A DNA stretch of 64,000 nt from Plumapathes pennacea (lineage: Eukaryota; Cnidaria; Anthozoa; Antipatharia; Myriopathidae), in the NCBI GenBank assembly GCA_964036295.1, contig OZ038467.1, forward strand, positions 15,969,670 through 16,033,669, read 5' to 3'. The translations under genes and the position numbers were made by a program. How positions within the stretch are numbered: the first letter of the stretch is position 1; each line of letters opens with the position of its first letter. Positions 25,149-38,800 of the stretch are shown piece after piece. Below the pieces are notes generated by a model, which saw only the letters and a program-made list of their open reading frames with translations, was not told where the DNA came from and did not search any database.

Positions 25149-26819
25149 CTATGTTTTAGTATGATTTTGAACATGTTCTTGCATGTCTTCCTTTAGGGCA
25201 AAATATTCACAACACACATCACACTCATAAGCATACTTATAGAACCTGTAAAGGTTTTCATCTCTGTGCTTAAAAAAGTGTCGTGACAGTTTGTCTTTAA
25301 CAGTGAAGGTTTCACTGCATATTTCACATGTGTAGCACTTTTCTTCATTGTGTTGAAGTTGCTTGTTAGGTGTGTGGACACATTGGTGCTGGATCACACT
25401 ATCCTTCATTGCAAAGGCTTCACCACAGATTTCACACTTGTGGGGTTTTTTTTGTGTGTGTACAAGTTGATGTCTGACCAGGTGAGCCTTCAGTGCAAAA
25501 GCTTTACCACACTTTTCACACTTGTGGGCCTTTTCTCCTGTATGTACAAGTTGGTGCATGGTCAGATGACTCTTGTGTGCAAAAGCTTTACCACATTTAT
25601 CACAATTGTAGGGTTTTTCTCCTGTATGTACAGGTTGGTGCATGGTCAGGTTACCTTTCTGTGTAAAAGCTTTACCACATTTGTCACACTTGTGGGGTTT
25701 TTCTTCTGTATGTACGTGTTGGTGTATAGCCAGGTTACCTTTCTGTGCAAAAGCTTTACCACATTTGTCACACTTGTGGGGTTTTTCTCCTGTATGTACA
25801 AGTTGGTGCATGGCCAGGCTTTGTTTTGTTGTGAAGCCTTTTTCACACTTGTCACAACTGTAGGGTTTTTCCCTTGTATGTACGCGTTGGTGTATAGCCA
25901 GGTAACTTTTCTGTGCAAAAGCTTTACCACATTTGTCACACTTGTGGGGCTTCTCTCCTGTATGTACAAGTTGGTGCGTGGTCAGGCTTTGTTTTGTTGT
26001 GAAGCCTTTCTCACATTTGTCGCACTTGTGGGGTATTTCTCCTGTGTGTACAAGTTGGTGCCTGGCCAGGCTCTCCTTCTGTGTAAAAGCTTTACCACAC
26101 TTGTCACACTTGTGGGCCTTCTCTCCTGTATGTACAGGTTGGTGCCTTGCCAGGTTAACCTTCCGTGTAAAAGCTTTACCACACTTGTAACACTTGTGGG
26201 CCTTTTTTCCTGTATGTACAAGTTGGTGCCTTGCCAGGTGAGCCTTCTGTGTAAAAGCTTTACCACATTTGTCACACTTGTGGGGTTTTTCTCCTGTATG
26301 TACAAGTTGGTGCATGGTCAGGCTTTGTTTTGTTGTGAAGCCTTTTTCACACTTGTCACAATTGTAGGGTTTTTCCCTTGTATGTACGTGTTGGTGTATA
26401 GCCAGGTTACCTTTATGTGCAAAAGCTTTACCACATTTGTCACACTTGTGGGGCTTCTCTCCTGTATGTACAAGTTGGTGCGTGGTCAGGCTTTGTTTTG
26501 TTGTGAAGCCTTTCTCACATTTGTCGCACTTGTGGGGTATTTCTCCTGTGTGTACAAGTTGGTGCCTGGCCAGGCTCTCCTTCTGTGTAAAAGCTTTACC
26601 ACACTTGTCACACTTGTGGGCCTTTTTTCCTGTATGTACAAGTTGGTGCCTTGCCAGGTGAGCCTTCCGTGTAAAAGCTTTACCACATTTATCACACTTG
26701 TGGATTTTCTTTCCTGTATGTACATGTTGGTGCAAGGTCAGATCACTCTTGTGTGCAAAAGCTTTACCACATTTGTTGCACTTGTGAAGTTTTTCTCCTG
26801 CATGTACAAGATGGTGCAT
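25149..26819 (-). CDS. C2H2 zinc-finger array protein (19 fingers, intact 556-aa ORF)
   Basis: An open frame with nineteen C2H2 fingers in tandem, most with the consensus HKCDKCGKAF and HTGEKPHKC-type linkers, ending in three diverged fingers and a stop at 25149-25151. Such arrays bind DNA in the nucleus, usually as transcription regulators. No KRAB, SCAN or BTB domain is present. Helix residues differ between fingers, but the block of fingers 3-6 is nearly repeated as fingers 9-12 (six-finger, about 504-nt period, with the rare HTGEI linker in both), showing internal duplication. The ATG at 26817-26819 falls inside a finger (at the M before HHLVH), so it is probably not the original start. 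Fingers upstream are broken (see the adjoining entry). It is either a gene using this internal ATG or an upstream exon, or an array losing its 5' end. Confidence 0.7.
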   Translation of the reverse strand: MHHLVHAGEKLHKCNKCGKAFAHKSDLTLHQHVHTGKKIHKCDKCGKAFTRKAHLARHQLVHTGKKAHKCDKCGKAFTQKESLARHQLVHTGEIPHKCDKCEKGFTTKQSLTTHQLVHTGEKPHKCDKCGKAFAHKGNLAIHQHVHTREKPYNCDKCEKGFTTKQSLTMHQLVHTGEKPHKCDKCGKAFTQKAHLARHQLVHTGKKAHKCYKCGKAFTRKVNLARHQPVHTGEKAHKCDKCGKAFTQKESLARHQLVHTGEIPHKCDKCEKGFTTKQSLTTHQLVHTGEKPHKCDKCGKAFAQKSYLAIHQRVHTREKPYSCDKCEKGFTTKQSLAMHQLVHTGEKPHKCDKCGKAFAQKGNLAIHQHVHTEEKPHKCDKCGKAFTQKGNLTMHQPVHTGEKPYNCDKCGKAFAHKSHLTMHQLVHTGEKAHKCEKCGKAFALKAHLVRHQLVHTQKKPHKCEICGEAFAMKDSVIQHQCVHTPNKQLQHNEEKCYTCEICSETFTVKDKLSRHFFKHRDENLYRFYKYAYECDVCCEYFALKEDMQEHVQNHTKT

Positions 26820-27010
26820 GGCTACTTTCCTCTTATATGCAATTTATCACACTTGTGGAGATTTTCACTGGTACAGTATGTACGAGTTGATGTGTGGCCA
26901 GGTTCCCCTTCTATGCAAAAGCTTTATCACATTTATCTCTCTTGTGGGTTTTTTCTCCTGTGTGTACAAGTTGTTGTATGGTCAGTCCACTCTTCTTTAC
27001 CAAATTGGTG
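26820..27010 (-). pseudogene. Decayed upstream zinc fingers of the same array
   Basis: Directly upstream of the intact array the minus strand still shows finger pieces. A finger just before the ATG has lost a short segment holding its second Cys and the GKAF part, which shifts the frame. The next has AFA followed by TAG (stop at about 26911-26913). The next carries Arg in place of the first Cys (THKRDKCDKAF), and one further up has QQLVH in place of HQLVH. So at least three fingers are dead in a row, while those downstream are clean. The ancestral protein was longer. Confidence 0.7.
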
Positions 27011-28832
27011 GATACAGTGGACAAGCAGATACCCCTTCCTTCTCCTATGTTTTTGAGATATATCTTAAAGTGGATACACAATGGGGTTAGACCAACCCTC
27101 CACATAAGTCATTTTTAAGTATATAAACTGATATGGCAATGTTTTTACTAGAACAAGGAATGCATTTTCATGTCACCACATATCCACGTAAGCCAATCCA
27201 AATAGAGCTACATCAAAAACTAAGGGGAGGGGTGGTCTAGCTTGACCTTGAAGTGGATATGCAGTATGCAAATACACATGTTTCAAAAACCTGGGGGGAG
27301 GGGTTGTCGAGCTCCACTGCATATCCCCGTATCCTGTGCAGATTTGTAAATGTTTATATAAACTTGCATGTCCATGGTGGTGGAACATAGTCAGCCTGAT
27401 TAGGTAGTCTTTCTTGGTTTTCATGTTAGTTTTCATGTAATTTGACAGATCAGTTGCCAGGCATTGATACAGTTCTTAAATTTCTTGTGTACACTGTAAG
27501 GTGAATGTTGTTCACAAAAATCATAGATGGCAATTAGAGAGTCCTACTTCTATGCAGTGTTTACTACATCCTCACAGGCTTTCATCTCCAGGAAGGAACC
27601 TATGTTTTAATGACAGTTAAGAAAACTCTTTTAAAACGAGTGAGATGAGGACTTCTGGAATCAGGGTACCAAAAGCGATGCACACATCCATATTTCATTT
27701 TTTCTTAAAGTTTGGATACATAAATGCCTTTATTGTGATTGCAAATGTTCTATAATAGGCCAGAGGCTAATGTGGCATAGGCTAAGCGTAACACATAACA
27801 GAATTCAAATGCTTCTTTATCCACATTTTTATTTGGAGGATAAAAAATTATACCAGTTGTTATCCAACGGATAAGCTTCGAACAACCTGACTTGGGCACC
27901 CGGAAAGGGGGGGGGGGGGGGGGGGGGAATGGAATGGGGGAATGGGAATTGAATAAACATGTGGCGTTGCGTGATAGCAACAGTTCAGAGCTGTTCTGCA
28001 GCGGCAGACTTGACCATAAATCATGAAGGTTTCTGGCAGGAAAATATAGCCAGACTGAATGAAAACTATCATACCCTGTCTTAGAGAGAAACGGTTCCAC
28101 TGTAACTATACTGAACACATAATCAAAAGCTTGTATCAAAAACCTGTGGTAGCTAGCCGTTGCATGTTGACACTAAAGCGAAATAATTGACATCTCGAAC
28201 TGTCTAAGCCTGTTTTATAGTGCAGGTCCTTGTTTAAACAGAGAAATCTCACTTCCTTACCTTCAAAAAGCATACAGATTTCTTAATATAAACCGTAGCA
28301 ACGACCGATGTCCACATGCACACGAACGCGAGCTTCTTGACCATTGACCAGGCCTGAAAAAGAACCCGTATGTTCGCGCCGATTTCTTGTGGACTTCTGA
28401 TTGGTCGACATAACGACGGCTTTTTTTCGTACGATTTCGTTGCTATCAAGGCCGTTTTTCGGATGACGGTCGAGCAATAAATGAATAACTTTATTAACGT
28501 TTCAAAAATCCTTTAGCATCACTACTAATTGGGGACACTAAACACTACAAAACAACCGCTACAAATAAGAAATTATAAATCATAATTAACTAACAATCGT
28601 GTGATTGGCTCTTCGCATTGGAACTGGCACAAGAGATGGTGGAAGAGGCGGGCGGGGAATTTTTAGATTACTTAAGGTATGCAGGGATGCCAACTTCAAA
28701 AATTTTCCAGGTGGGAGATTTTTTGCAACCCACCGCCCATCGGACGTTGTGTTCGCCATGTTGAATGACATTCTGTCATGCGCAACACGTCACTTCGTAC
28801 TTGCGGGTAACTGATAAAGGAGGAGTTCAAAG
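27011..28832. other. Intergenic stretch between zinc-finger array and SMARCB1
   Basis: Contains two related GGGGAGGGG-rich segments (27222-27330), a G homopolymer at 27907 and AT-rich sequence. The last 250 bases, with GGCGGGCGGGG at about 28647, should hold the promoter of SMARCB1 exon 1a. No other coding sequence is seen. Confidence 0.5.
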
Positions 28833-29347
28833 ATGGCGCTGCACGTGCAAAGTAGAAAACCTGCAGTGTTTCAGCTGGAAAATGGGGGAGAATTTTATAT
28901 GATAGGAAGCGAGGTCGGTCATTACCTAAACTACATGAAAGGAGCCTTATACAAGAAGTATCCATCGCTTTGGCGCCGCAGCCCAACTCTGGAGGAGAGA
29001 AAAAAGCTTTTGTCTCTTGAAATTGGCTACAACACCTTGTCAAACTCCAATATCATGCTCGTCAAAGCCTCTGAGATTGAAACAATTCTGCAAGGATTGG
29101 GCGAACAATTTAAGGAAAGGCTTGCAGCCCCAGATCATTCTCCGCGTTCAAAGACTTCAAAGTCGTGGCCATCCAGTATTGGTGGTGCGGGTTTGTTGAA
29201 AATGCCATCACATTTGTCTCGGGAGACAATCCATACTTCTGTTCGACATTTGCGTGCAGTTTCTTGTCAATTAAACCCGGGTGCATCAAGAAGGATAGAC
29301 CTGAAAGTTCGCGAAGCTCTCCGACAAAAAGTTCTGCCAAGTTTATG
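28833..29347 (+). CDS. SMARCB1: SMARCB1 alternative first exon 1a (diverged winged-helix copy)
   Basis: It starts with ATG in a good context (AAGATGGCG) and encodes 171 codons plus two bases. Residues 1-95 align with exon 1b and with human SMARCB1: [40 protein letters not shown] and [12 protein letters not shown] judge roughly half the residues identical to 1b. The linker that follows is very different from 1b but still has SW and HLRAVSC where 1b has SWVP and HLDAVPC. The usual NDEKYK motif is replaced by LGEQFK. The frame is open throughout and the donor (TG then GTAAGC) is at the homologous place and phase, which argues against a dead copy. It needs its own promoter, upstream of 28833. Confidence 0.75.
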
Positions 29348-32300
29348 GTAAGCTTGTTTCAGTTTCTCTGTGAAAGGAGCATAGCAGTTCTATTACATAC
29401 TTCGGATGCACATGATTTAAGAACTTTAGTTGGTATTACACAAGTCAGATATCCATAACTTTATAGTAAACTATCAAGTGCCATCGCATACAAACACCAG
29501 CCCATGGCCAACCGGCACTTCACTGTAAGTATGTTAATACAGGCAGTGTGATTTATTATTTTACTACTTACATTTATGCCCTTCAATAGAGTACTTGCAA
29601 TATCCTAACAAACAATACTATTTGAATGCTTCAAGTGCACTGAAGTCTTAAGTTTATCGATATTTCTGTGAAGAGAACAAAATTGCAGCAAGTGCGAGCG
29701 CTCGCAGAGGCTCACGGGTAAAGAAACATTGAAAACCATTATGGCGGTTCGAACATACGGACAGAAGCCGAGTTCATTCGTTTTGGACGATGGAGAATCA
29801 TATATGATCGGATCTGAAGTGGGAAACTACTTAAGGATGTTCAGAGGATCTTTGTACAAAAAATACCCGTCGTTGTGGCGCAGACTAGCAACACTTGAGG
29901 AGCGTAAAAAGATCGTCTCCTTGTCTTTGGGATTCGGACACAACAATCTCGCAACGAACGTTACTCTGTTGAGAGCGAGAGAGGTTGATGAGATCTTAGA
30001 GGGGAATGACGAGAAGTATAAGCTCTCTAACGAGCCTGCGGATGTGAACCGGCAGAATTTTCAACTCGGAAAGTCGAAGCGCGGAGCGCCGCAGTCTTGG
30101 GTACCAGCTCAGTCTCTTTTCCCGAGTACCTCGTATCACTTAGATGCCGTTCCTTGTGCGTCCACTGTGAACAGAAACAGGCTGGGACCCAAACGGATCA
30201 AAACCTTTCCAAGATGGTAAAGTAGAATTGCGTGTACTTCGTATCAAGATCTGAATAACAACATCTTTTATTCGTGTTAATATATACGCTTGAGAATTCC
30301 TCATAGTTCTTACAATGCTCTGGCCTCAGGTGTACATTACTCCTAAATCCCAGAGTTTTATGCCACGAAAATGTAGTAGAGTGAGGATAACCAGGCATCT
30401 CTTACTTTACCCAGCAAAACTGATCAAGTTATCAATTCTCAACTGTCACTCCATTCATTTCCTCTCCGAGGTTGGGAGAATTTGACTTATGGTTATATTT
30501 TTAAGATTCAGTGGCAAGCTCTGGATACATGCTGCTCAGCAACCAGCTGACATTTTTGTTTATGTAGTGTTATCCCTTTCATTCCCAAGACTGACCAACT
30601 TCAATTTTCTCCAGATACAGTGAAACCTCAATATAATGAACCTTGGTATAAGGAAAACCCTGATATAACAAACAATATTCTTCAGCCTGTTACAGCCCAG
30701 TTACAGTAAAATGTATGTGAGCAGAACCTCACTATAAGAATATCCCGTTATAACAAACACATTTTCCCAGTCCCTTGGCCTTCATTATATCGTAATACAG
30801 TAAACTGTACTGTATTACCTGTATATCATACAGTAAGGAGAACTTGGCTTTTCATGCCTTGAAAGCTGGTTAAACTATCAATAAATTCTCACTAATCACT
30901 TGTATATTTTCTTCTTAAAAGGTGGGGAGAATCTGCATTGTGACCTTGGGAATGAAAGGGTTATTGGTTCATTTGGATCTTGTCATGACTCACTGAACAA
31001 TAATAATTGGTAGACATTTGCTGTGGTGGTACACATTTAAAAATACATATAACAAACATGGGGAATAGTTGTGGTGACAACTCATACTTTGTCTGATGTT
31101 AATAATTTCTCTGCTCTCAGTTATGATGACCACGACATGGCAGCAATTCATGAGGCGGCTGCTCAGCCAGAAGTGCTGGTTCCTATTCGGCTGGATATTG
31201 ATATTGATGGACAGAAACTCCGGGACACCTTCACATGGAACAAGAATGGTGGGAATGCTTTCTAATTTGTTCTGTTTTGGTGACAACTTGAACAGCAAAT
31301 TAAGACACATCTTGGAGGTGCAAGTGCCAATTTTTGCACAAACTCCACAATCTATTTTGTGTGCTGTGCTGTTTCCCAACTGTCTCTTTTCTTTCCTTCC
31401 GTAGTTCCTAATGCAAAGAACTGCAGTACTCTCTCCAACAATTCAACACTGAAGTTATACACATTGGAATATTTTGAACTCTTTGTTTATTGATTTTTGT
31501 TTTTGTTTCAGAAACTCTTATTACTCCAGAGGTGTTTTCGGAGGTGCTCTGTGATGACCTTGACTTGCCGCTGGCATCCTTTGTTCCCGCTATTTCTCAA
31601 GCGATCAGACAGCAAGTGAAACAGTTTGCAGCAGAACCTGATATTGTGCTGGATGAGCAGACAGATCAGCGAGTCATGGTGAAGGTAATGAAGCACCTGC
31701 CTGTATCCACAATACACAGTTCTCTCCTGCTAAATTCCTTGTTATTTTGTCTCAGTTGAACATTCATGTAGGAAACATCTCCCTTGTGGATCAGTTTGAA
31801 TGGGACATGTCTGACTCTCGCAACAACCCGGAGCAGTTTGCCATGAGCCTATGCTCTGACCTGGGCCTGGGTGGGGAATTTGTCACAGCAGTTGCCTACA
31901 GCATTCGAGGACAGCTCAACTGGCACAGCAAGACTTACGCCTTCAGCGAAGCACCGCTGCCTACTATGGAGCGTCCAATCAGAAGTGGGCCAGACGTTGA
32001 TAACTGGGGGCCATATTTAGAAACCTTGACAGATGCTGAGATGGAGAAAAAGTTACGAGACCAGGACAGAAACACAAGGTATTTATCGCAGATTGAATGT
32101 TTCATTTCTGAATGTATGAAATCTTCCAATGTACTGTTCATATTTTGTTCGGAAACCATGAGAGTGCACACACAGTGTTGTATAGATAGATAGAATCTTT
32201 TTTATCCTCAGAACTTCATCAGTATATACAACAATATTGCTTTTCATGAAAGCCGAGCAAGGTCATAAAAGTACTAAAATACAAATTCCATAAAAAGAAT

Positions 32301-32917
32301 ATATTCATATAAATGTGGTTAAGGCTCAATGGATGATAGCTCCTGCTTAAAAGACTATATACTTCTTTGCTGTCTAATGTGGAGTGGCAGTTCATTCCAG
32401 AATTTTGCACTGTCATGTATAGAGCTCTCTTTAAAAGATATTCTGTTCTAGGTTTAACAAGAGATAGCTGGTTTTCTCTTTGTTGAAGATTGTAGGGTGT
32501 ATGTTAACATTTTTGGTGTGATAAGTTCCTTAAGGCAGAGGGGCAATCACTATTTAATATTTTGTACATCATTGAGGCTTTATGTTTGTATTGTCTTTTA
32601 GTAAAATCATCCCAATTGAGACTGCAGAGAGTTGACATTAGAGAGAGAAACCACTCAGATGCTCAGCTCGATTAGCTGCTTAGTTATTTCTGATTAATTG
32701 TTACCTGAATCTGTTTCTTCTTTTCTCTGTTTATAAATAATTTTAATGCAAATTATCCACCCATGTTGTACAAGAAACCATTCTGCTGCACACAAGTTAT
32801 ACCCAGATAAACTAGAAACCATTAGAGTGCACACACTGTAACCTTTCTGTCACACTAATCTCTTGCTTCTTTTCTAGGCGTATGCGTCGTCTGGCCCACA
32901 CGACCTCTGTCTATTGA
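28833..32917 (+). CDS. SMARCB1: SMARCB1/SNF5/BAF47, SWI/SNF core subunit, with two alternative first exons
   Basis: Core subunit of BAF/SWI-SNF nucleosome remodellers in the nucleus. Exons: 1a 28833-29347 or 1b 29741-30216, then 31121-31248, 31512-31684, 31756-32078, 32878-32917 (TGA 32915-32917). With 1b the product is 379 aa (human 385); with 1a it is 392 aa. The winged-helix domain is in exon 1 (FYMIGSEVG or [20 protein letters not shown]). The two RPT repeats follow ([58 protein letters not shown]). The basic C-terminal helix that contacts the nucleosome acidic patch is kept ([20 protein letters not shown]). Both first exons end in TG before the donor, so each gives the conserved Cys codon before YDDHD. 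ATTAAA at 33038 could serve for polyadenylation. The neighbouring RasGAP gene is convergent. Confidence 0.95.
29741..30216 (+). CDS. SMARCB1: SMARCB1 canonical first exon 1b
   Basis: The ATG at 29741 begins [10 protein letters not shown], matching the human ALSKTFGQKP start. Then come [39 protein letters not shown], the [11 protein letters not shown] motif, QSWVPAQ, and [15 protein letters not shown] before the TG/GTAAAG donor. This is the conserved copy and very likely the main isoform. An in-frame TTG at 29729 lies upstream but is not needed. The 393 bases between the end of exon 1a and this ATG must hold its promoter if it is transcribed independently. Confidence 0.92.
30612..30810. mobile_element. 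Remnant with TACAGTGAAACCTC end
   Basis: ATACAGTGAAACCTCAATAT and later AGAACCTCACTATAAGAATA with TATAACAAACA words, like a pogo/Tigger-type MITE that has lost a clear right end. It lies in SMARCB1 intron 1. Confidence 0.45.
30868..30962 (+). repeat. Best-preserved copy of the 100-base repeat family
   Basis: TGGTTAAACTATCAATAAAT, TTCTTCTTAAAAGGTGGGGA and GACCTTGGGAATGAAAGGGT. It lies in SMARCB1 intron 1. Confidence 0.7.
32079..32877 (+). other. SMARCB1 last intron with possible LINE 3' debris
   Basis: The segment 32185-32640 resembles in layout the segment at 51780-52260 in the RasGAP gene (both have GTTCCA(G/A)A..TTTGC/GCCCC and AGTTTC-like words), as seen in 3' remnants of retroelements. 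No frame is kept; the assignment is weak. Confidence 0.3.
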
Positions 32918-33395: not shown

Positions 33396-33859
33396 TTATT
33401 TGGCTTCTTGTTCAGTAATGTGTCTCTCTCTTGGTTCAAGGCTCTTATGTGCTATCTCTAACTCATCAATCACCTCAAACAAGTGCAAAGCAGCAGCCTT
33501 GGCATCATTAGAAGCTTCACTTGGTGCAATGTCCATTTCTGGAGCTGCTGTGGGAGTCTCTGTGGAGGTGACAGTGTATTTCTGTTTGAGCTCGTCACGG
33601 CTCATGAGAAGTTGGGAGTAGATCATTTGTGCTTCACAGTCTGGGTCCAGTGGGTCACGCCAGTCACTCAAGGTCACATGGGTGTGTGTCTGGTGGCAGC
33701 CTGGTGCTGAGAAGAAACCACACAATCATTTTCTTTGTGCCATGATAGTATACCTTAGCAACCATAATGGAGCTTTTCATCATGTCCTTGGAATGAAGAG
33801 AGACAACAGAACTAGGCCCCAATTTAATTGCACCCTGCTCACACTTAGAGTAGTCACGG

Positions 33860-33900
<41 letters not shown>

Positions 33901-35833
33901 ACCCTCAGTGCCTCTTTTATGTCCCCATAATTCTTTTTCAGTCTAGAAATGGGGCTTTCATTTTATGTGGTCACCCAAGCCATGAGTATAGAGCATGGTT
34001 TTACACCTTGAATGTTCATTGCCTTGAGTAGGGCTTGAACCTGCCATCCTCAGCATAAAACTTGGCCATGCTATCTGCTTGGCATGCCTGTTAGACAGAG
34101 ATCACATAGGAGTTTTGCTGTTTCTCTGGCTCTAAGCCTCTGCTGCAGTTAGTCTCCCACTACTCACCTGTCTTTCGCACACGCTTGCAGCATGACCATT
34201 TGCTCTTGTGGTAAATGCCCGGATGGTACAGTGGAAGCACCTCAGTGTTAGACACAAATGTTTTTCTGATGGCTGACAGCCACTGGTGCATCTCATTCAC
34301 ATCCTGAAATCACAAAGATGATTTGAATGATCCATGTGGGACAGCATTTTATCCATCCATCCATCTATTCTCTACCTTTTTTCTTCTCCTCTCATCCTCT
34401 TTCCTTCCCAACTTCTCTTTCCTCCCTCCCCACCCTTCTGCCGTAAACATGCCCACAGACAGAGAAGAAAAGTGTATTTAATTAAACAAACAACAACTGT
34501 TGTACCTGAGCAGCTAAGTATGTAGTATGAAGTGAACCTTTAACTTCTCCCGTCACCAGTTGAAACACATTAGCTTTCTGAAAAGCACAATCTTCCACCC
34601 TTTCAGCAGCCAGCAGACGAAATGTGGGAAGAAACTGCCGCGTCTGAGAACAAACCAAGTAGGGAGAACAACACTTCAAAAGTCAAATGGCACCAACACA
34701 TGCACAGTAAAAAATAAACAAAATATAATAACTAATAATAATATAATGGAAAATAGTAGAAAGAGACCTTAAGATTTTGACTGTGTTGGCGAAGAGAATA
34801 ACATCTATAATGAATTGACTAAAGGTCAACGTGTGAAAGCTAGGCGCCATAGAAGAGTTTGACGCTAATAAAATACAGTAGGATGATCCAGTTATGTTGT
34901 ACATACCTGGGACTCTGGGGTGTAGCCATACAGGAAATTCTCACTACTCAACCAACAATAGCGCTTCTTGAAGGAGAAAGGCTTAGGGAGACGAAGAGGG
35001 TTGTATGTGCACTTCCGTAGGTAGCCTTCCTTTATCACCATGGACTGACTGAAGACACTCCTTTTACGATTACACTCAGGAACTGCAACACAAGTCAAGT
35101 AAAACTGCATGACAAAATACCCATTTTGCAAGTCACCATCATCACTATATGTACCTTGAGAATCCTCTGCATCTGTCAGTATGTCTAGGAAATCCTTCAC
35201 TTGTTCAGAATAGTGCTGAACTGATGTGTACAAGGGTGACACCCAACTCCCTGTGTCTGTGATTTTTGGATCCAGATTCCCAATTTTCTGTACTGTCTGT
35301 CAAAAAAAAAAACAAACAAACAAACAAACAAGGGACCACATTATTGATTACTGGTACTCCATGAACACCCACACCAAATGTGACAGTTAAAGACCAGTCA
35401 ATATTTATGCCAGGGGAGGGGAGCTGGTCAAAAAAAGGGGGGGGGGGGGGCTACTGGTTTTTCAGATGTTCAGAGGGGGCACAAAATGTCAAGAGGTTTT
35501 AACATCTTAGTTCAAAACTTTGGCCAACCCCCCCCCCCCCCTCCCCTGGCATAAATAATGACTGGTCCCTTACACCCTGAATCACTACTGGGAGTGAAAG
35601 AGTTAAACTAACCATAAGCCTGTGAGGATGTTCAAGCTAGACTTGCATAGCCAAAAGTCTTACCTTTGCTAATAATGTCAGGGTGCGTGACACAGTCTTG
35701 TCTGCATGATGATCTCGCAAGCTGAACAGCTTGGGTGCCAGGATTGCAGGAGCAAACAGTCGAAGGAATAGAAAACCACTGATGGCTCTGTAGTGTACAT
35801 CCTGACAAATGGGAGCAAAGAAAATGATGTCAT

Positions 35834-35872
<39 letters not shown>

Positions 35873-38800
35873 AGCACTTTTTGATCAAAAGAAACTGATC
35901 TTCTCCTCAAAAGGGTCAGATTGAAGTGGATTGCTATTCATCTTTTCACCTTCGGGGGCCCCAAAAATGGCGGAACCAAGCACTCCGCCATGGAACAATT
36001 ACATTTTAATTAAGATTTTCACGTTTCATTCAGAGTACAATGTGTGTAAACTTGTGTATGTAAGTTAGGTTTATTGTTATGTCATCATCACGAGGTTGGT
36101 ATCTCTGGTTGTATGTATCATGCAAGTACACCCCTTAAGTATGTTAATATGTATGCATTTGGCTTGTACATGTATGGCCATATATGTATGTATGTCTGAA
36201 TCAATGTAGTGTGAAATCTTAGTTTGGAAAATTAGTGAGGTACTGTTAGGTATGTAAGTATGTTGGTGTGTATGTGTGTCAACACAATCAATCCACCTAA
36301 AACCCCCCTGGATTTGCCCTTGGAATGAAGTGTGGAATGTTAGTTTGGAAAATTAGTGAGGTACTGTTAGGTATATAAGTATGTTGGTGTGTATATTGTA
36401 TGTGTCAACACAATCGATCCACCTCGAACCCCCCCAGATTCGCCCTAGGAATGTAGTGTGGAATGTTAGAGTGGAAAATTAGTGAGGTACTGTTAGGTAT
36501 GTATGTATGTGTCAACAAAATCAATCCACCTTACTTCACACTGAATGTTGCCTTTGTAATGCTCTGAAACTCTTTGGCTCAGGTTTCTGAATGCCACCCT
36601 CATGTAGGCTGGGCAGGCATCAACAGAGTTGAGAATGGAGGACATGATAGCTTGCAGGTAACCCTGCAGTGTGCGCACTTTCTTCGCAGTTGCATCATGC
36701 TCATCTGAGTTTCGGGTGCTCGGCCGCCTTTGATATAAAATTGAAAAAACTCAAAACTGACATGACAAAAAATCTCGACTAAGTTTTAAAACTATTAAGA
36801 TCTCGCAATTTCTACTCAATAAATTTTCCCTAAATTCGCTATAAAGGCCTCTTTGTGTACCAGATTCAATTTATAAATCAAAGCAGCAAGGCAGCTGTAG
36901 CTAAAAAAGTGTTTTATAATAATTGAGAAAAAAGAATTATCGACGCGGTTTTCACGGGTCACGCGACCGCAGCACTCTCCAAAATAACAGATTGTACCTT
37001 TTTGGCTCCAGAACTAAAAAGAGCATGCCTGAATTAGTCCAGATGCCAATTTTGGATTGTCTAGGCTTCATTTTGGCGAAGCAGCGGCAATTTGTTTTTT
37101 TGAGATTTGATAAGAGTTTGTATGCGGCCGCCATGTTAGTCGAACTCGGAACACGAAATGAAGTTGATCTGTGACTCAGTTTGATGTTTAGTTACTTCAC
37201 ATCTTTCGCAGTGCCAATTTTAAAATGTTTCGTGAAGGACCGATTTTAGTCGGCCTCGCGCGTGTACACGGCTTTGTTGTCACGGTATTCAAACGTCCAT
37301 AGCTCCCGATAGATATTTTGTATCGACTCAGAATTTTGCTTTAAGTCTTAAGGCATGATAGTCTTGAACATATCAATGTATTGGACTTATAGGATACGTT
37401 ACTTTTGAGATGGCTTTTTATGACGTCAAATGCAAACCAAGAATTGAAATACCTGAGTAATTTGCATACATAATACAGCCTGGCAAAACGAGGACACATT
37501 GTGGCGGCAACATTGTGTCCTTCGATGTTTCCAGGGTGGCAAAACGTGCGGCAACATATTGTTTCGCTCCGTGCGGACACAACAAACGCTTCTGAAGCTG
37601 TTCAAAAACATTGTTTGTGTCCGCAACAAATGTTTCGCGACTGGCAAAACGGGGCAACATTTTGGGAAACATGCGCGCTATCAATGTTGCCACCACAATG
37701 TGTCCTCGTTTGGCCAGGCCTTTAGGAACTTGTAAACATTCACCGGAAATGGATATTTTTGGCTTTTCTAAAGCCGAGATTCAATATCTTTCGGCCCAGT
37801 ATCTTCCAAGCCGTATTTACTGTCACTACAGAAATTTTGGCGGATACTAAACCAACGGCTTCAGATTTGTTTGCGATAACGCCATCGGTGCCACTGATTG
37901 TTTGACCTTCATGGCACCGCGTCAACATTTTCTTGCAACTTGTCGTGCAACAAAGTAGCGTAGCAAGTTGCGGCCTGTGTTGCACGTATTACTACCTACG
38001 CACACAACAAAATTTCGTGTTGTGAGTTGCGGCAACATGTTGCAAAAAGTAGACTCGGCTTCTACTTTTTGCAACATGTTGCCGCAACTCGCAACACAAA
38101 ATTTTGTTGCAGAACAAGTTGCGTGCGTAGGTAGTAATACGTGCAACAAGAGGCCGCAACTTGCTACGCAACTTTGTTGCACGACAAGTTGCAAGAAAAT
38201 GTTGCCCGTATTACTTCACCTTAACAACACAAAACACAACAGAGTGAAACACGACCAAGCTCAGAATCAATGACCATGCAAACAAACTTCGAACGCATGA
38301 CAAACCTTCAAAATGAGAACACGTTCCGAACAAAAATATGGTCGCAACAACTACGACAACATCTTGCTTTTAAACTGCGTTGTTCGACACACCCTGGTAC
38401 GCGACCTTCATCATGCCCAAATTTGGAAAACCGCAACTGCTCTATTTGGAAATCCATTGTTGACAACAGAGGGAATAGGGAAGTAGAGAAGTAGGGAAGT
38501 AGGGAAGGGAAAGTGATTACTATACCTCACAAATCCCACAAAGTGGGATTCGCGAGCTAAAAAATGGGGGTGACCGATTCCATTTAGCTGCTATTGTGGC
38601 TGGAATATCACACACTTTCTGCCTGAATAGAACAGTTTACATATAAACGCACCAGGTTTAACCAAAATTCCGAAAGAACTGCTCCACAGATGTTTTTCTT
38701 CTTTTTTCAGAAAAAAATGCAGATCTTACATGTGAGACCTATACCCAAAAATTCAGGATAGGTCACTGAACTAATTTTTGTGTTATTCCTGTATGTTTCC

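Follow-up and report, generated by a model that had tools for sequence, protein, structure and literature searches.

Whether one gene body can serve two versions of the same chromatin remodeller subunit is the question raised by the SMARCB1 locus of the antipatharian Plumapathes pennacea, which lies in a stretch of 64,000 nucleotides of contig OZ038467.1 (hereafter the window). SMARCB1, or BAF47, is regarded as a core subunit, and the role of its winged helix is an open question. This domain is located away from the nucleosome in cBAF and near the nucleosome in PBAF (PMC13237135, PMC12343709). The original prediction for the locus, made from the DNA letters, held that the gene begins with two homologous, phase-matched first exons, 1a and 1b, each of which carries its own ATG, encodes a winged-helix N-terminus, joins the same downstream exon in frame and is served by its own promoter.

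Two first exons on a common gene body

Exon 1a (28833..29347, plus strand) consists of 171 codons plus TG; codons 1-94 encode a variant winged helix and codons 95-171 a diverged linker. Exon 1b (29741..30216, plus strand) consists of 158 codons plus TG and encodes the canonical SMARCB1 winged helix and linker. Both exons end in phase 2, with the donors reading ATG/GTAAGC past 29347 in 1a and ATG/GTAAAG past 30216 in 1b. The first common exon (31121..31248, plus strand), whose acceptor reads ctctcag/TTATGATGAC and has a pyrimidine fraction of 0.71, takes either of them in frame; the codon spanning the junction encodes Cys and is followed by YDDHD. We take intron 4 of human SMARCB1 (c.500/501) to lie at the same position. 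Further downstream, a common exon with part of the SNF5 repeat region (31512..31684, plus strand; SNF5 profile match) is followed by one that comprises more of this region and the start of the C-terminal helix (31756..32078, plus strand; PF04855, 91.2 bits). The last coding exon (32878..32917, plus strand) holds the end of an arginine-rich C-terminal stretch, the first arginine of which is split by the preceding intron, and the stop codon TGA. When 31121-31248, 31512-31684, 31756-32078 and 32878 up to the stop are joined, uninterrupted proteins of 392 residues via 1a and 379 residues via 1b result. Two features of the SMARCB1/INI1 family are present in them, SNF5 repeats (PF04855) in the common exons and an INI1 winged helix (PF21459) in both first exons.

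The start codons of 1a and 1b both have A at -3 and G at +4, and each is preceded by an in-frame stop at a distance of at most 120 bases; the same 120 bases contain three other ATGs for 1a and one for 1b. Measured against the donor consensus, 1a scores 7/9, the sole candidate with this score within 29100-29419, and 1b scores 6/9. The two reconstructed proteins bear out the prediction of phase-matched first exons with their own ATGs and an in-frame join at the same codon, and the description of 1a as fully open holds for its uninterrupted 171-codon frame, the start context and donor of which are intact.

The splice sites also bear on two other ways in which 1a could be used. In the first, 1a would be spliced into 1b, resulting in a SMARCB1 with two tandem winged helices. 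In a survey of acceptor AGs confined to 29380-29740, past the earliest AGs and short of those inside 1b, three (before 29674, 29689 and 29710) are in phase, with the frame open to the 1b ATG. However, with pyrimidine fractions of 0.65, 0.24 and 0.41, respectively, they fall short of the range of 0.71-0.88 found for the four acceptors of the gene; the best of them, that before 29674, comes close but ends in AAG, where the four gene acceptors end in CAG or TAG. Because these candidate acceptors look weaker, the double-winged-helix splice is disfavoured, and we regard it as very improbable. In the second, the intron after 1a would be retained to give a short, free winged-helix protein of 172 residues acting as a competitor of BAF47. 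An unused donor does place a stop at 29349-29351 (TGG TAA across the donor), but an identical stop is found across the donor of 1b, so that its occurrence in 1a follows from the shared donor sequence; moreover, an intact donor at a conserved phase would be needless in such a protein. Intron retention as the function of 1a therefore appears to us barely credible.

Profile searches identified the same domain in both exons. PF21459 (Pfam INI1_DNA-bd, cut-off 27 bits) matched 1a with 106.9 bits and 1b with 131.1 bits, and human SMARCB1 chains and structures were matched with best E values of 1.1e-25 and 4.4e-50, respectively. Over residues 1-94, 1a and 1b are identical at 51 of 96 aligned positions (53%); counted over pairwise columns, identity to the human SMARCB1 winged helix is 51/90 for 1a and 71/91 for 1b. 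Both exons thus encode a SMARCB1 winged-helix N-terminus, close to the vertebrate one in 1b and diverged in 1a, as had been proposed, and the aligned identity, the common profile and the shared junction support the proposed exon-level paralogy. Exon 1a additionally displayed a match below the cut-off to Rsc7/Swp82, a yeast remodeller subunit family (PF08624, 19.1 bits, cut-off 25); in 1b, PF08624 gave no match at E values up to 1.

We searched the 290-Mb, 24-contig assembly in six frames and scored the best candidates. Among these, three PF04855 matches were obtained, all in the exons of this gene, giving a single SNF5 locus, and 1a and 1b were the only places above the winged-helix profile cut-off; two other places, with E values of 3.8 and 9.7, fell below it. 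A second full SMARCB1 gene or a retrocopy was considered and rejected, as the best candidates scored place SNF5 repeats at a single locus in the assembly. Relatives were also sought in viral and prokaryote contigs, collections that lie outside animal genomes, and the 4, 91 and 70 stretches that matched the search patterns there encode none.

Divergence and constraint in exon 1a

Exon 1a is no recent copy: over 92 codon pairs of the winged helix, the comparison of 1a with 1b shows saturation at silent sites (pS 0.88), with a pN of 0.33. A pairwise GY94 fit of this domain gave an omega of 0.025 and is worse by a 2dlnL of 60.6 when omega is held at 1; t is at saturation (11.3), and the exact omega is therefore soft, its sign firm. 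Because 1b by itself might account for such a pairwise statistic, 1a was in addition compared with the human protein. Neutral drift was simulated from a 1b-like domain, with 2000 runs per distance and retention of at least 51 residues identical to human as the criterion. This level was kept in 20.8% of the runs at 0.2 substitutions per site, in 5 of 2000 at 0.3, and in 0 of 2000 at each of 0.4, 0.5, 0.7 and 1.0. Taking identity alone, a drift of 0.15-0.2 substitutions per site on 1a is compatible with these results.

At eight places (Q18, E20, F25, Y81, T83, K92, S94 and E97), the human residue is kept in 1a and changed or lost in 1b; 1a was therefore not copied from present-day 1b. Among 89 three-way columns of the winged helix, 1a alone departs from human in 27 and 1b alone in 7, from which it follows that 1a evolves faster than 1b. 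Given the saturated silent sites, 1a has most likely been constrained through most of its history. Judged from these comparisons, its winged helix has most likely been under long purifying selection, where the silent changes are left undivided between the two branches and a recent loss of constraint is possible.

The linkers that follow the winged helix are a different matter. The linker of 1b is clearly that of the human protein (local score 132, reached by 0 of 2000 shuffles). In 1a it is almost unrecognisable, with a residual HLxAVxC alone; its similarity to the 1b linker is not significant (shuffle fraction 0.24), and that to the human linker is marginal (shuffle fraction 0.035). Over 56 codon pairs of the 1a and 1b linkers, dN is 1.3 and dS is 2.2, and the 1a linker looks to be under little constraint. 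This stretch of 1a stays open in 1.4% of composition shuffles, but two further frames there, one forward and one reverse, are stop-free too, for which reason the openness of the 1a linker is weak evidence. The claim that 1a is far more diverged in its linker is borne out by these values.

In the winged helix of human INI1, S30, E31, R37, R40, K45 and R52 are among the conserved residues of the DNA-binding face named in one study (PMC4509781). All six are retained in 1b; in 1a, S30, E31, K45 and R52 are retained, R37 is replaced by N and R40 by K. Within the winged helix, deep mutational scanning found R52, A55, I63, K77, L90 and L91 to be intolerant (PMC13237135). Of these, R52 and L90 are kept in 1a, which carries the changes A55P, I63L and L91V. 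The segment containing K77 is an alignment gap in both 1a and 1b; by our own count from the exon boundary and the 27 nucleotides by which the human isoforms differ (PMC12343709), human SMARCB1 isoform 2 is presumably without this segment as well. The changes in 1a are not significantly clustered in the DNA-reading helix, positions 34-46 (6/12 versus 21/58, p 0.52).

Together with the faster evolution of 1a and its unconstrained linker, such changes could mean that 1a was a long-lived functional exon, the use of which was lost recently, and that it is now a silent relic; R37N and A55P fall on positions important in human (PMC13237135, PMC12343709). Against this stand the frame, start context and donor of 1a, all of which are intact. 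In a simulation of substitutions without indels, an open 171-codon frame survived in 13% of the runs at a neutral distance of 0.1 substitutions per site and in just 2.6% of 4000 runs at 0.2. The gene-body-like loss of CpG in the interval between 1a and 1b (see below) also argues against a relic, which we consider unlikely.

CpG pattern and candidate promoters

As alternative first exons in current use, 1a and 1b would each be driven separately, by a promoter P1 immediately before 1a and a promoter P2 over 1b. A CpG-rich patch, the candidate P1, extends over 28101..28800, with an observed/expected ratio (o/e) of up to 1.54 in 400-base windows, compared with 0.14-0.28 per kb at 24-28 kb. A second patch, the candidate P2, extends over 29601..30300, with an o/e of up to 1.33 in windows of the same size; neither patch is assigned to a strand. 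Between the two exons, the stretch 29348..29640 (plus strand) is depleted, with 3 CpG versus 9.4 in shuffles; a count this low occurred in 0.67% of 3000 shuffles, and the interval resembles a gene body. The intron 30217-31120 is likewise CpG-poor (8 observed, 30 expected), and 1a itself is mildly depleted (20 observed, 26.2 expected, shuffle fraction 0.07). Compared with shuffles of their own bases, the patches are merely undepleted (26 observed and 21 expected for 28200-28700; 32 and 27.4 for 1b), and CpG-rich patches are common in the window, with 23 such stretches. The pattern at 1a and 1b suggests that there are two promoters and that 1a is traversed by transcription in the germline. Across the window, CpG o/e varies strongly from patch to patch, with quartiles of 0.25 and 1.0 for 400-base windows, as would be expected under mosaic gene-body methylation.

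The P1 patch may be shared with, or belong to, a divergent gene on the minus strand. Inside it, a short minus-strand frame (28249-28344) carries an ATG at 28344 and, after it, a GTAAGG donor; it possibly represents the first exon of a divergent gene that would use the 1a promoter as well. A Pfam scan of this frame gave no match. Of the two promoters originally predicted, base composition is thus in agreement with both, in the form of two CpG-rich patches with depleted DNA between them, but the patch before 1a is perhaps that of a different gene.

Two sites of the form TGATTGGYY, which we take to be an NFY-like motif, occur in the P1 patch at 28398 and 28602; as the window contains 15 against 4.4 expected, they are unspecific to the patch. 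Over the 1a start codon (28830..28838, plus strand) lies AAGATGGCG, presumably a YY1-like motif, of which there are 2 in the window and 0.26 expected. A looser start-codon motif at 1b (CATNATGGCG) gave 1 match, which is no more than chance, at least one being found in 20 of 100 shuffles. Both YY1 and NFY are named among promoter-binding factors (PMC13345969).

A proposed exchange of the BAF47 winged helix

The reading that we prefer, and hold to be probable at roughly 70%, is an ancient tandem duplication of the 5' end of SMARCB1 in this lineage, comprising winged helix, linker and probably promoter, after which the copies would have become alternative first exons, each under a separate promoter. 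Splicing of either donor to 31121 would then yield one of two BAF47 proteins that differ in their winged helices and have RPT1, RPT2 and the nucleosome-binding C-terminal helix in common. The 1b form would be canonical BAF47. Because the parts for assembly and for binding the acidic patch are common to both, the 1a form should still assemble; since its winged helix is without R37 and R40 and is followed by a new linker, contacts with ARID/ARM partners or with nucleosomal DNA should differ. It would thus be a specialised or weaker variant.

Human PGM1 offers a parallel, with two promoters, paralogous first exons that are about 51% identical and common later exons (PMC7101342). The same type of architecture is present here: paralogous first exons, each with a start codon and in the same phase, precede common downstream exons, the winged helices being 53% identical, and, as in PGM1, the duplication would be ancient. 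By analogy, the 1a/1b arrangement is best read as working in the way of the PGM1 first exons, in that promoter choice would swap the winged helix. In contrast, PGM1 is a metabolic enzyme with two described forms, both kept across vertebrate clades, whereas the two forms predicted here are those of a chromatin remodeller subunit.

Isoforms 1 and 2 of human SMARCB1 also vary within the winged-helix part of the same gene, their difference being 27 nucleotides with which exon 2 ends, but neither of these two common isoforms has a second winged helix; six further minor isoforms are mentioned in the same source (PMC12343709). PHF10/BAF45a, a PBAF subunit that carries a relative of the winged helix of INI1 (PMC4509781), resembles the present case in having alternative N-termini and isoforms that are alternatively incorporated into SWI/SNF complexes. 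However, its N-terminus gains 47 residues, the SAY domain is found in all isoforms and no domain swap through paralogous exons is described (PMC5514133). Among the literature matches listed, titles and the beginnings of abstracts tell of no paralogous first exon in SMARCB1/BAF47.

A more tentative proposal, to which we give somewhat less than even odds, is that this hexacorallian builds two classes of BAF/PBAF complexes by promoter choice, distinguished by the winged helix of SMARCB1 and one of them without R37, and that targeting is switched at the level of the exon within a core remodeller subunit. If so, R37, the single replacement of which causes severe human developmental disease, would be naturally absent from one class of complexes. 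If both versions are kept by selection on one common body, the locus would constitute a natural domain-swap experiment, and a SMARCB1 with two versions would allow the role of R37 and R40 to be addressed in vivo.

Several further features were observed around the gene and in the assembly. Upstream of SMARCB1, a zinc-finger gene on the minus strand (25149-26843) contains 17 matched C2H2 stretches in tandem (Pfam zf-C2H2). Minus-strand exons at 33396-35800 appear RasGAP/PH-like by eye; a Pfam scan of one stretch of them, 34892-35299, gave no match. Imperfect tandem repeats of about 120-130 bases were also spotted by eye at 36200-36500. Contig 24 of the assembly (17,711 bases) is mitochondrial, with gene names assigned by eye. 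It has two tRNA genes according to Rfam, and ARAGORN reported no tRNA genes in its first 10,000 bases. A search of the assembly for the green-fluorescent-protein family as a clade marker gave no hit, and neither did its controls. In the mitochondrial contig, an intron with an endonuclease-like frame divides COX1, and the two parts of ND5 lie on either side of ND1 and ND3, a combination that marks Hexacorallia.
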